A model generated the notes under the pieces. The model saw only the letters and a program-made list of their open reading frames with translations, was not told the DNA's origin and searched no databases. This document shows positions 2,279 to 62,741 of a stretch of 64,000 nt of DNA, in pieces. Positions within the stretch are counted from its first letter, which is position 1; every line of letters begins with the position of its first letter. The position numbers were made by a program, and so were the translations under genes. This stretch comes from Methanosalsum zhilinae DSM 4017. Lineage in GTDB: Archaea; Halobacteriota; Methanosarcinia; Methanosarcinales; Methanosarcinaceae. The DNA is taken from NCBI RefSeq assembly GCF_000217995.1, contig NC_015676.1, positions 1,094,103-1,158,102 of the forward strand, given 5' to 3'.

Positions 2279-2968
2279 ATGAGTGGATATAATATTAAGA
2301 TTAAAGAAATGCCTGATGATGAAAGACCAAGGGAGAGATTATTAAAACGTGGTCCTTCTGCACTTTCAAATGCAGAATTACTTGCTGTTATTCTTCGCAC
2401 AGGAACGAAAAATGAAAACGTGGTAAGCATATGTAAAAGAATTCTGTCATCCTACAATCTAAAACAGCTTAGTCTGGCAGATATGTCTGAACTGATTCAG
2501 ATACATGGTGTGGGATACGCAAAAGCTGCACAAATAATTGCTGTTTTTGAACTTGCAAGGAACCTGGAGACTTTCATAGATAATCCAAAAACTAAAATTC
2601 AATCCCCATTAGACGTTTATTCACTATTTTATCCCAAAATGCGTGAAAAGAAAAAAGAAGAGATGTATGCCCTTTATCTTGACACAAAAAATCAGATATT
2701 GAAAGAAGACATAATTTCCATAGGAAGCTTAAATGCCAGCATAGTTCATCCAAGAGAAATATTTAAGCCTGCACTTCTTGAATCCTCTGCTTCGGTAATC
2801 ATCACACACAATCATCCATCGGGGGATCCGTCTCCAAGCAGGGAGGATGTATCCATTACAAAAAAGCTGGTAGATGGTGGAAACTTGCTCGGGATTGAAC
2901 TTCTTGACCATATAATTATAGGTGATGGAAGATATGTAAGTCTAAAGGACGAGGGAATTATTTCATAA
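2279..2968 (+). CDS. radC: RadC-family JAB domain protein
   Basis: At 229 residues this is the usual RadC length. An N-terminal helix-hairpin-helix region (LLAVILRTGTKN, IHGVGYAKAAQI) precedes a JAB/MPN metalloprotease-like domain with the JAMM motif THNHPSGDPSPSREDV. RadC was named for a DNA-repair phenotype that was later questioned, so the true activity is uncertain. The conserved metal ligands (two His, Asp) are present. The gene is monocistronic. A short hairpin with AAAGC and GCTTT arms follows the stop codon. Confidence 0.9.
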   Translation: MSGYNIKIKEMPDDERPRERLLKRGPSALSNAELLAVILRTGTKNENVVSICKRILSSYNLKQLSLADMSELIQIHGVGYAKAAQIIAVFELARNLETFIDNPKTKIQSPLDVYSLFYPKMREKKKEEMYALYLDTKNQILKEDIISIGSLNASIVHPREIFKPALLESSASVIITHNHPSGDPSPSREDVSITKKLVDGGNLLGIELLDHIIIGDGRYVSLKDEGIIS

Positions 2969-3148
2969 AAAGCGAAAGCTTTATAATGAGATACTTCAAC
3001 GATTATGGAAACTTATGGGTCGTTCTTTGTAGAAAGCCGTTTCAATAATTACATCAATGTAAGTTCAATGATCCCATACAGAATATCCATAGAAAATCCA
3101 TCTTTATCGATGTAATGACAATCAACTTACAGAGAGGCAAATAGAACA

Positions 3149-36860: not shown

Positions 36861-37231
36861 TAATTCCTGAATCATCGATCAACCTTCTCAGTGATGCAAT
36901 TCTGATTATGGGTCTTTTTTTTGTGTTCCTTGGTATGGTAGGGCTTCTGAGGATGCCTGATGTGTACAATCGTCTACATACAACTACCAAGATAGGTACC
37001 CTTGGTGCCTTTGGAGTAATGATCAGCCTCTTTGTCAGAGTTGGTCTTGAGCCCATAGGCATTAAAGCTCTTACTCTTGGCCTCTTTCTTATGCTTACCG
37101 CACCCATTGCAGCCCATATGATCGGGAGGGCAGCATTCCATCATGGAATTTCCGTAAGCTACGGAGAGAGAGTCATAGATGATTATAAAGATGCATGTGA
37201 AAGTGAAGAATGTACAGAATCTGAAAAGTAA
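36857..37231 (+). CDS. mrpG: Mrp antiporter subunit G, apparent non-AUG start
   Basis: MnhG motif GLLRMPDVYNRLH is followed by LGAFGVMISL and two further helices, with a polar tail. The first ATG in frame (36908) leaves only 11 residues ahead of the motif, cutting the first membrane helix short. Codons back to a TGA at 36839 include no ATG, GTG or TTG; CTG (36857) or ATT (36854), 4-7 nt after GGTG, would give the usual N terminus. I place the start at CTG with low certainty; the gene itself is sure. Confidence 0.8.
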   Translation: MIIPESSINLLSDAILIMGLFFVFLGMVGLLRMPDVYNRLHTTTKIGTLGAFGVMISLFVRVGLEPIGIKALTLGLFLMLTAPIAAHMIGRAAFHHGISVSYGERVIDDYKDACESEECTESEK

Positions 37232-37372
37232 ACAATAACTGTTACAATACAGGTCCACATTTATGATTGTACAATAATATAGTAGTTGTATTATAGCCGT
37301 ACATATCCTATCTAAGGATTCAGAATAGAGTTTAAAAATCCAATTTAGATTTCAATTATATAGAACTATTTT

Positions 37373-37438
37373 CGTGAGCGGGTTGGGGAGTGGGGGTAAA
37401 TTTGGGAGTGGGGTTTAAAAAAGAGTAACCCGCTCACG
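37373..37438. other. G-quadruplex motif inside a 12-bp perfect inverted repeat
   Basis: CGTGAGCGGGTT (37373-37384) and AACCCGCTCACG (37427-37438) are perfect complements. Between them, four G-runs sit at 37385-37388, 37392-37396, 37404-37406 and 37410-37413, separated by loops AGT, a 7-nt A/T stretch and AGT, a good G-quadruplex pattern on the plus strand. It lies 140 nt after mrpG and 180 nt before Sua5 in an otherwise A+T-rich 389-nt gap with no gene. It has no T-run after it, so it is not an obvious terminator. It could be a structured RNA or a regulatory DNA element. Confidence 0.75.
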
Positions 37439-37620
37439 TTAGAATCACCAACGTAGTTATATTATATAAAGTTTACTTAATTCTACATAATTAATCAGAT
37501 TTTTTTCTTAGTATTAATATAAGTTATTTCTGGTAATTTTAAAGAGAAGTGTTTGGGGACAGCCATAATTTAAAATATCACTTTATGCAATATCATTGCT
37601 AATCAAATTGGACAGCACAA

Positions 37621-38709
37621 ATGATCAAAGAAATGATACACAAAAAACACACTCGTATTTTTAATGTGAACAACAATCAATTTGAACAAACAATTGAAGC
37701 AGCTTCACAGATTATTAAAGATGCAGGCACCGTTGCATTTCCAACTGAAACAGTGTACGGACTGGGAGCAAATGCGCTAGATCCTGTGGCAGTGAACAAA
37801 ATATTCAGGGCAAAGGGCAGACCCGCGGATAATCCATTAATAGTTCATATTGCCACAAAAAAACAGCTTTTTGAGATAGCAAAAAATATACCTACAGAAG
37901 CTTTAGATCTTATCGATACCTTCTGGCCCGGTCCGCTTACAATAATTCTAAACCGTAGAAGATGTGTACCCAATATTACCACCGGTGGACTGGATACTGT
38001 TGCTGTAAGAATGCCATCTAACAGAATAGCAATTGAATTAATTAAAAGAGCAAATACTCCCATCGCAGCTCCCAGCGCAAACATTTCCGGAAGACCCAGT
38101 CCCACCAATGCACAGCATGTAATTGCAGATATGGAAGGAAAGATTGATGCAATAATCGATGGTGGTAGCGTTGAGATAGGAATTGAATCGACTGTGCTTG
38201 ACCTTACATCTATAAAGCCAACAATATTAAGACCTGGAGAAATTGGAATTGCAGACCTTAAAGAGCATATGAAAGATATTGTAATTGGATATACAGATAA
38301 TCAAACTGACAGGGCAGATAAAGTAAAATCACCTGGAATGAAATATACTCATTATTCTCCAAAGGCAAAGTTAATTCTGATTGAAAGTAAAAGCAATGAT
38401 AGATCAATATCACAGGAAATTGAAAAACTATATTCAGAAATGAACGATTGTGGCATAAAAATAGGTCTTTTACTGACGGAAGAAAACGCTAAATTTATTT
38501 TAGATGGAAAAATGCCGGAATACATATTTTCCCTTGGAAAAAAAAATGAGCCTGAGCAGGCTGCAAGAAATCTATTCATGGGTCTTAGGCATCTTGATAA
38601 TCATGATGTTGATATTATCATAGTTGATGGACAGATAAAGAATGAGGGGATTGGCATAGCAGTAATGAACCGGATGAAAAAGGCAGCAAACGAGCATATT
38701 TTGGTTTAG
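37621..38709 (+). CDS. Threonylcarbamoyl-AMP synthase (Sua5 type)
   Basis: A 362-residue protein with the YrdC/Sua5 domain (AGTVAFPTETVYGLGANAL, KGRPADNPLIVHI, APSANISGRPSPT) and a C-terminal Sua5 domain after about residue 235. It makes the intermediate for the t6A modification at position 37 of ANN-decoding tRNAs. The gene ends in TAG. Confidence 0.93.
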   Translation: MIKEMIHKKHTRIFNVNNNQFEQTIEAASQIIKDAGTVAFPTETVYGLGANALDPVAVNKIFRAKGRPADNPLIVHIATKKQLFEIAKNIPTEALDLIDTFWPGPLTIILNRRRCVPNITTGGLDTVAVRMPSNRIAIELIKRANTPIAAPSANISGRPSPTNAQHVIADMEGKIDAIIDGGSVEIGIESTVLDLTSIKPTILRPGEIGIADLKEHMKDIVIGYTDNQTDRADKVKSPGMKYTHYSPKAKLILIESKSNDRSISQEIEKLYSEMNDCGIKIGLLLTEENAKFILDGKMPEYIFSLGKKNEPEQAARNLFMGLRHLDNHDVDIIIVDGQIKNEGIGIAVMNRMKKAANEHILV

Positions 38710-60941: not shown

Positions 60942-61373
60942 TAACGTATTTAAAGGAATATCTATAAACAAAAGTTAATCCTTTAAAAAGGGACAAGCTG
61001 AAATACAATTCCAGCTTGTCACCGAATTCAACCCAGACCCCATCCGCTCACTTCTATATCTAAGTTTTCTCTTTAAACATATAACTATAGACTGGATTAC
61101 ATATAAAACTTTTGTTAACACTGATAATTGATGATGTACTGATTTACTCATTACAAGATTCTCGATTAGCGAATGTATGATCTCAATAAAATAACGTACT
61201 ATTGATAATTCCATTTAGCTGTTACGATTAACTTTGATTTTAGCATAATTGAGTTATGAATATTACTTTTGGCATGTTAATCAATAATTTTAAATCGACT
61301 GCATATCATAATTGATTAGTGAAAAATACATTATAACATCATGATTTTAGATGATTTCAGGGGGAGTGGCTAG
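60942..61373. other. Intergenic region with a minus-strand hairpin
   Basis: A 432-nt A+T-rich region. An 80-codon minus-strand frame (61214-60975) exists but overlaps the hairpin and G-rich stretch at its end, so it is not called. Apart from that and the ribosome binding site of the dehydrogenase gene, I see nothing. Confidence 0.4.
60985..61051 (-). ncRNA. Candidate small RNA 3' end with intrinsic terminator
   Basis: On the minus strand, GTGAGCGGATGGGG (61051-61038) is followed by a 9-bp hairpin GACAAGCTG/CAGCTTGTC (61020-60992) and CCTTTTT. No supported gene on this strand precedes it. The element resembles the left part of the G-rich hairpin at 37373. Its 5' end is unknown. Confidence 0.3.
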
Positions 61374-62741
61374 ATGAAGAAAATAAAATCTATAAATCCT
61401 GCAACCGGAGAATTAAATGAAGAATTTGACCATTATTCCAGCCAGGCTGTCAGCGAGAAACTGAAAATTTCAAGAAAGGCGTTCAGTGACTGGAAAAATG
61501 AATCCATAGATCAAAGATGTTCCTCAATTCAAGAGGTAGCTAAAGTTTTGAGAGGCAATAAAAAGGAACTTGCTGAGATCATTACAAACGAAATGGGAAA
61601 ACCAATAAAAGAATCAATTGCTGAAATCGAAAAATGTGCATGGACATGCGATTATTTTTCAAAAAACGTCGAGAATTTCCTTGAGCCGGAATTTGTGGAA
61701 TCGGATGCAAAAAGTTCCTGTTATGTTTTTGAACCTGCAGGTGTTGTCCTGAGCATAATGCCATGGAACTTCCCCTTCTGGCAGGCATTGAGATTTGGAA
61801 TACCTGCACTGGCAGGAGGAAATACAGTATTGCTAAAACATGCAAGCAGTGTACCTATGTGCGCCCTGGAGATAGAGAAAATTTTCATAAAAGCAGGCCT
61901 TCCGGAAGGTACCTATCAGACAATCCTTGTTAATGGGGAAACAGCATCGTCATTGATCGCAAAAAATGAGATCAATGCAGTTTCTTTTACAGGAAGCAGA
62001 CCGGCTGGAGAAAAGGTTGCACAAGCTGCAGGAGGCAGCATAAAAAAGTTCATTCTTGAACTTGGTGGTAGTGATCCCTTTATTGTAATGGATGATGCAG
62101 ATATCCCGGAAGCAGCAAAAGCAGCTGTTACTGGTCGATTCCAGAACTGCGGCCAGAGCTGTATCGCAGCCAAGCGCCTGTTAATCAATGAAAATGTTAT
62201 GGATGATTTTACAGAACTTTTCCTGAAAAATATTGATGACATGAAAATAGGCGATCCAATGGATTCAGATACCGATATTGGACCAATGTCAAGTGAAAAA
62301 CAGAGGCAGATCCTGGATAAACAGGTAACTGAGAGTCTTAGAAAGGGAGCTAATGTTTTGCTGGAAGGAGGTATGACAGATGAAGATGGCTTCTTTTACC
62401 TCCCTACAGTACTCAATAAAATCAACAGAGAAGCTCCTGTTGTTACTGAAGAGACATTCGGACCTGTAGCTCCGATTATAACCTTCAAAGACGATAATGA
62501 AGCCATAAAAATTGCCAACAATACCGAGTTTGGGCTGGGAGCCAGTATTTGGAGTAGAGATCAGAATAGAAGCATGCGGGTAGCAAAACAGGTAGAAGCT
62601 GGTGTTATTGCCATCAACAGCATAGTGTCATCTGATCCAAGACTTCCCTTTGGAGGCATGAAAAAAAGCGGTGTTGGCAGGGAACTGTCTCGTATTGGAA
62701 TGCTGGAATTTATGGAAGTAAAATCAATGAAAATATATTGA
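61374..62741 (+). CDS. NAD(P)-dependent aldehyde dehydrogenase, succinate-semialdehyde type
   Basis: The 455-residue enzyme has PWNFPFWQALRFGIPALAGG, FTGSRPAGEKVAQAAG, the general-base segment FILELGGSDPFIV and the catalytic cysteine in FQNCGQSCIAAKR. SDPRLPFGGMKKSGVGREL closes the family pattern. It most resembles short succinate-semialdehyde dehydrogenases (GabD/Sad-like), making succinate. The substrate is inferred. GGGGGAG precedes the ATG. Confidence 0.85.
   Translation: MKKIKSINPATGELNEEFDHYSSQAVSEKLKISRKAFSDWKNESIDQRCSSIQEVAKVLRGNKKELAEIITNEMGKPIKESIAEIEKCAWTCDYFSKNVENFLEPEFVESDAKSSCYVFEPAGVVLSIMPWNFPFWQALRFGIPALAGGNTVLLKHASSVPMCALEIEKIFIKAGLPEGTYQTILVNGETASSLIAKNEINAVSFTGSRPAGEKVAQAAGGSIKKFILELGGSDPFIVMDDADIPEAAKAAVTGRFQNCGQSCIAAKRLLINENVMDDFTELFLKNIDDMKIGDPMDSDTDIGPMSSEKQRQILDKQVTESLRKGANVLLEGGMTDEDGFFYLPTVLNKINREAPVVTEETFGPVAPIITFKDDNEAIKIANNTEFGLGASIWSRDQNRSMRVAKQVEAGVIAINSIVSSDPRLPFGGMKKSGVGRELSRIGMLEFMEVKSMKIY

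Follow-up and report, generated by a model that had tools for sequence, protein, structure and literature searches.

A predicted family of multi-copy hairpin small RNAs with C-rich loops in the archaeal class Methanosarcinia, seen on the opposite strand as a G-quadruplex motif

What is a G-quadruplex motif enclosed by a perfect inverted repeat doing behind the mrp operon of Methanosalsum zhilinae DSM 4017? The element occupies positions 37373-37438 of the window (the whole stretch of 64,000 nucleotides that was analysed, from a genome consisting of a single contig of 2,138,444 bp) and sits between mrpG (Pfam PF03334, ending at 37231) and a Sua5-type gene for threonylcarbamoyl-AMP synthase (Pfam PF01300/PF03481, starting at 37621). 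The original prediction described 12-nt arms around G-runs of 4, 5, 3 and 4 bases, a repeated AGTGGGG and a gap free of genes, and the sequence bears out each of these: AGTGGGG occurs twice, and no ORF crosses the element interval between mrpG and the Sua5-type gene. The arms CGTGAGCGGGTT (37373-37384) and AACCCGCTCACG (37427-37438) form a perfect 12-bp inverted repeat with a 42-nt spacer, the sole perfect inverted repeat of at least 12 bp with a spacer of 3-60 in the 64-kb window. The element also contains the window's only motif of four runs of three or more Gs (loops of up to 12, both strands), compared to a mean of 0.07 such motifs in each mononucleotide-shuffled window. The fold of its minus strand, which we argue below is the transcribed one, has a z-score of -7.8 relative to dinucleotide shuffles.

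The element belongs to a family. Two more places in the same genome carry the same arms and core, and a search of 100 relatives gave matches in 80, nearly all of the fetched ones with arms GTGAGCGGG...CCCGCTCAC or close variants and the core GGGGAGTGGGG (G-rich plus strand). A covariance model built from 15 sequences found homologues in 54 of 60 sampled relatives, with at most seven detected copies per genome and some of these in tandem pairs; among relative genomes of good quality, the family was present in 42 of 43. The host genome itself has three clear copies and two weaker candidates, one detected by the covariance model at 2091167 and one with an altered stem at 1567709. Within a single genome, the copies are not alike in their loops and flanking sequence. 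All 35 genomes that matched in a sample of 197 from the phylum fall in the window's own class, Methanosarcinia. An exact search for the 19-base core in one genome per species returned 107 stretches; the 80 of these that were listed come from Methanolobus, Methanoperedens, Methanomethylovorans, Methanococcoides, ANME-2 and other Methanosarcinales or archaea, and one from a Treponema MAG. No match to an Rfam 15 family at the element reached the curated threshold. Judged by comparison of sequences, it is nearly certain that we are dealing with a gene family of small RNAs of the Methanosarcinia. Divergent sRNA copies with the stem GAGGCATGT/ACATGCCTC were also noticed at two loci (L348, in genome G006, and L111), the L348 copy scoring below the covariance-model threshold.

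In an alignment of 111 homologues, pairing is kept in 94% of stem cells and 11 of 11 stem pairs show two-sided changes, with 140 double-change cells compared to 41 in shuffles and 27 or fewer with slid partners. The stem is 9-12 bp long across the family, and its variants GUGAGCGGG, ACGAGCGGG, GCGAGCGGG, AUGGGCAGG, GAUAAGCGGG and GGCAUGUGG each come with a matching 3' arm. Arm covariation in relatives, which the original prediction had proposed as a check, is thus strong, and the stem stands as a real conserved RNA structure; the other half of that interpretation, an RNA quadruplex held in its loop, does not. Loops are composed of 43% C, 28% U, 27% A and 1.9% G, with UUUU in 98%, CUCCC in 89% and CCCCACUCCC in 72% of members, and the C-rich repeats are expanded in some copies and lineages. 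Since the loop is so poor in G and the four-run motif is kept in only 33 of 122 members (19 in the loop alone), what the family conserves is a C-rich loop, open and free of G, that contains a U-tract, and not a quadruplex. Some loops are swollen by tandem C-rich units, for example three of AATTCATACTCCCC at L114 (1468-1575), and similarly at L098, L119 and L093; the number of units varies between related genomes.

The strand that is read was deduced from several features. An A-rich BRE and a TATA box precede the stem in the reverse complement, and across 121 copies a TATA box (a match of 6/8 or better) was found at -42 to -25 in 91%, with a peak at -29 from the model start; the mirrored interval of the opposite strand has one in 23%. 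Across the alignment, the nine inner stem pairs are G-U 28 times and the mirror-image A-C 4 times, a count that leans somewhat towards the minus-strand reading as the alignment was fitted in that orientation. The first seven bases past the stem are nearly free of G (2-6%), and T5 runs occur within 60 nt downstream in 45% of cases compared to 27% further away. Together, the TATA position, the G-U excess, the G-poor bases after the stem and the downstream T5 runs argue for transcription of the RNA from the minus strand, with the G-rich strand as its template. This overturns the earlier picture of a stem presenting an RNA quadruplex as its loop, because promoters and wobble pairs place the RNA on the C-rich strand.

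In the window, the conserved core of the sRNA gene corresponds to the covariance-model match at 37372-37440 on the minus strand (85.8 bits, with alignment and covariation in agreement), from which the RNA is predicted to start at about 37440. The TATA box TTTATATA, at 37463-37470 with an A-rich BRE-like stretch before it, lies where such boxes are enriched family-wide. The predicted order along the minus-strand RNA is 5' stem, U-tract, C-rich loop and 3' stem: the 5' arm reads CGUGAGCGGGUU (37427-37438; inverted repeat and covariation), the U-tract UUUUUU (37417-37422), the first C-rich repeat CCCCACUCCC (37404-37413), and the second, CCCCCACUCCCC (37385-37396), is the most conserved and the presumed pairing seed. 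The 3' arm AACCCGCUCACG (37373-37384), supported by covariation, is also complementary to the partner sites described below, as judged by duplex comparison. Further upstream, a TGACAATTATGACAT-like repeat was seen about 70-110 nt before the sRNA at loci L008, L012 and L019, and more loosely at L009, all mrpG-linked copies of one genus; it is a possible operator and could relate to a published 'cold box'. As a family-wide operator the Methanolobus upstream motif was rejected, being confined to mrpG-linked copies.

The family copies are intergenic, and their neighbours are oriented in all four ways (33/32/24/17). The position between mrpG and the Sua5-type gene recurs in a second genus of the same taxonomic family beside the window's own, and the mrpG neighbourhood is retained only in orthologues of the 37373-37438 copy. 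Other copies stand beside unrelated genes which, as read from sequence, resemble replication factor C, a pyrophosphatase, RuBisCO-like and ACDS-type proteins, RNA 3'-phosphate cyclase, an MgtE-type transporter and a transposase; a neighbour gene or operon common to the family was accordingly ruled out. The suggested link of the motif to Na+ and K+ at the antiporter operon found no support, the mrpG neighbourhood being limited to orthologues of this one copy. Varied neighbours in all orientations argue for action in trans. Of the features expected of a stand-alone archaeal trans-acting sRNA gene, the element shows a promoter of its own at a fixed distance and a conserved secondary structure, and it is not the leader of a fixed downstream gene. 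At the locus of the second sRNA copy of the host genome (L002), which includes an MgtE-type gene, an M-box (Mg2+) riboswitch match of 137 bits was seen at 2855-3028 on the minus strand, about 1.3 kb from the sRNA.

These observations bear on three other explanations of the element. Lying 3' of the mrp operon, it could have been a terminator or 3'-end processing hairpin of that operon, or a 5' leader element; its promoter, however, faces mrpG and not away from it, the neighbours of other copies face all ways, no T-run follows directly after the stem and the loop is 42 nt long, all of which makes this explanation extremely improbable. A dispersed palindromic mobile element of the MITE type, with the inverted repeat as its ends, would explain why genomes have several copies and why these end in perfect inverted repeats, and a few copies do lie near transposase genes, but such an element would not be expected to show a covarying stem, a constant promoter distance, loops and flanks that differ among copies of one genome and a position (mrpG-Sua5) common to different genera, and we regard it as very unlikely. 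Much the same holds for a function of the G-quadruplex itself, in DNA or in a plus-strand RNA: while the four-run motif is unique in the window and improbable by chance, persistence of the G-runs in relatives, on which the original prediction had staked its case, extends to the 33 of 122 homologues mentioned above only, and wobble and promoter evidence favour a C-strand RNA. With a C-rich transcribed strand and four G-runs in that minority of homologues, the family does not qualify as an RNA G-quadruplex element, and a functional quadruplex is scarcely to be expected. The DNA template strand may form a G-quadruplex, which is not the conserved feature.

We looked for RNAs with which the C-rich loop could pair. 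Exact GGGGAGTGG sites were discarded as targets because they lie mostly within ORFs, with few at start codons, and were uninformative; the longer GGTTGGGGAGTGG sites were informative, and some intergenic GGGGAGTGG sites bear the longer complement GGGTTGGGGAGTGG. A search of 100 relatives used GGTTGGGGAGTGGNH, which by its form leaves out most sRNA loci, and found 20 sites, of which 4 were sRNA copies and were removed; the remaining 16 compare to 1 (reversed), 0 (permuted) and 5 (permuted and reversed) sites for control patterns in the same 100 relatives, and the complementary sites are enriched about eightfold over permuted patterns. For core plus arm, the predicted duplexes reach -35 to -47 kcal/mol, where the 1% background of the window is -16. 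The comparison was restricted to core and arm because long-range pairing confounded the energies of whole-length duplexes, for which shuffled controls approached the value of one site, that of a DUF5658 gene. In both the host genome and a congener, this DUF5658 site follows a TATA box by about 26 nt and is therefore at the inferred 5' end of the mRNA; the ribosome-binding site of the gene in the host genome is GGGGTTGGGG. A second partner site begins another inferred transcript with a long hairpin. At two partner sites the promoter distances are incompatible with a transcript starting at the site, and some of the G-rich sites may be remnants of former sRNA copies.

Within the window, the best non-self duplex is with a candidate G-rich small RNA (GUGAGCGGAUGGGGUCUGGGUUG...) at 60982-61051 on the minus strand, for which pairing is predicted from the duplex calculation. 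This candidate, near 61.05 kb, ends in a 13-bp terminator hairpin (61020-60992) followed by T5; TATA-like boxes lie further upstream (at about 61108-61101 and 61074-61068), and a congener has a homologue at 85% identity. Its region (60982-61108, minus strand) also carries the sequence of the sRNA's 5' arm. A weak candidate target is the GGGGAGTGG site at 61361-61369 on the plus strand, with 9 bp complementary to the loop. It lies at the ribosome-binding site of an aldehyde-dehydrogenase-like gene with its ATG at 61374, and could simply be a conventional Shine-Dalgarno sequence.

Three other genera (L366, L360 and L105) also have similar G-rich stretches with a hairpin behind them. In two loci, L370 (G000, 345414, minus strand) and L364, a candidate transcript has the G-rich complement first and then a long hairpin; it lies near an S-layer-like gene and is conserved in two congeners. 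In L355 and L357, two genomes of one family, probably Methanoperedens, the G-rich complement precedes a chorismate-synthase-like ORF by 344 nt in each case. Three related genomes of one genus (L361, L362 and L363) share an intergenic GCAGGTTGGGGAGTGGG stretch that precedes a hairpin and may mark one more G-rich RNA.

We propose that the element encodes one member of a trans-acting sRNA family that has several copies per genome, nearly all with promoters of their own, and that uses its C-rich loop and 3' arm to pair with G-rich sites in other RNAs. The probability of this reading, built from sequence analysis, we put at roughly two in three; the pairing mechanism by itself we consider likely. 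The RNA is predicted to begin at or near the 9-12 bp stem, which closes a nearly G-free loop with a U-tract and one or more C-rich repeats, mostly CCCCACUCCC. The loop, kept open as a pairing seed, would nucleate pairing at GGUUGGGGAGUGG-like G-rich sites of other RNAs, close to their ribosome-binding sites or 5' ends, and the duplex would extend into the 3' arm as the hairpin opens. This would block ribosome access or alter RNA stability, as reported for sRNAs of M. mazei. G-rich RNAs that end in a terminator could be antagonists that titrate the sRNAs, and the U-tract could be a binding site for an Lsm protein. A more elaborate regulatory circuit of two RNAs, specific to the class, is put forward tentatively: paralogous hairpin sRNAs with the C-rich loop would act together with G-rich RNAs dedicated to antagonising them, each stem variant would suit particular partners, and the circuit would control mRNAs tagged by G-rich sequence at their 5' ends. 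We consider it less likely than not.

The strongest competitor keeps the same sRNA family but gives its U-tract and C-rich loop a protein as binding partner, for which the RNA would be a decoy or scaffold, in place of other RNAs. The G-free and repetitive loop, the multiplication of C-rich repeats in some lineages and the near-universal U-tract all suit it, since a titrating RNA is expected to show repeated short motifs. It leaves the eightfold enrichment of complementary G-rich sites, some of them at inferred 5' ends, without explanation, and we consider it rather unlikely. The partner sites are few, occurring in 16 of 100 genomes with sRNA copies included, and only some are conserved between species. 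Given this patchy distribution compared to that of the near-universal sRNA, the main targets of a pairing sRNA may instead be shorter, Shine-Dalgarno-like sites.

To our knowledge, few archaeal sRNAs have known targets. The family spans methanogens and anaerobic methanotrophs (Methanolobus, Methanosarcina-type genera, ANME-2 and Methanoperedens), and its fixed seed and computable partner sites offer a direct route to test base-pairing regulation, sRNA sponging and the use of Lsm in archaea that produce or consume methane. The locus also illustrates that what appears as a conspicuous quadruplex motif can simply mirror a C-rich RNA encoded by the opposite strand.

A literature search by sequence and by Methanosarcina sRNA returned no paper with the element sequence, and copies may stand unrecognised in published Methanosarcina and Methanolobus transcriptomes. 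Among described systems, the cuckoo RNAs of alphaproteobacteria (SmelA075/SmelA099, CcsR1-4) have variable stems and constant anti-Shine-Dalgarno C-rich loops in several copies (PMC3927594); they are intergenic and were proposed to pair with G-rich ribosome-binding sites (PMC3927594, PMC10253847). The archaeal family resembles them in its several intergenic copies per genome, variable stems and constant C-rich loop, but differs in the loop core (CCCCACUCCCC compared to the cuckoo motif CCUCCUCCC), in having one hairpin per RNA, archaeal promoters and a long U-tract loop, and in complementarity that reaches into the 3' arm. By analogy, it would work like cuckoo RNAs while, lacking CCUCCUCCC, it is not a member of that group.

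Closer in phylogeny are intergenic sRNAs of M. mazei, from the same archaeal class, which are reported to mask ribosome-binding sites: sRNA162 (PMC3510493) and sRNA41 and sRNA154 (PMC5867862). sRNA162 is 191 nt long, has three stem-loops and is found in Methanosarcina only (PMC3510493), and sRNA154 is reported to have a leaderless 20-aa ORF (PMC11456600). sRNA41 or sRNA154 may be a family member. In Methanolobus psychrophilus R15, nine conserved cold-induced intergenic sRNAs share a motif upstream of their promoters (PMC5378194). Like the family described here they are conserved, multi-member and intergenic, and Methanolobus carries the C-loop family; these nine sRNAs are the best lead for a possible identity with it.
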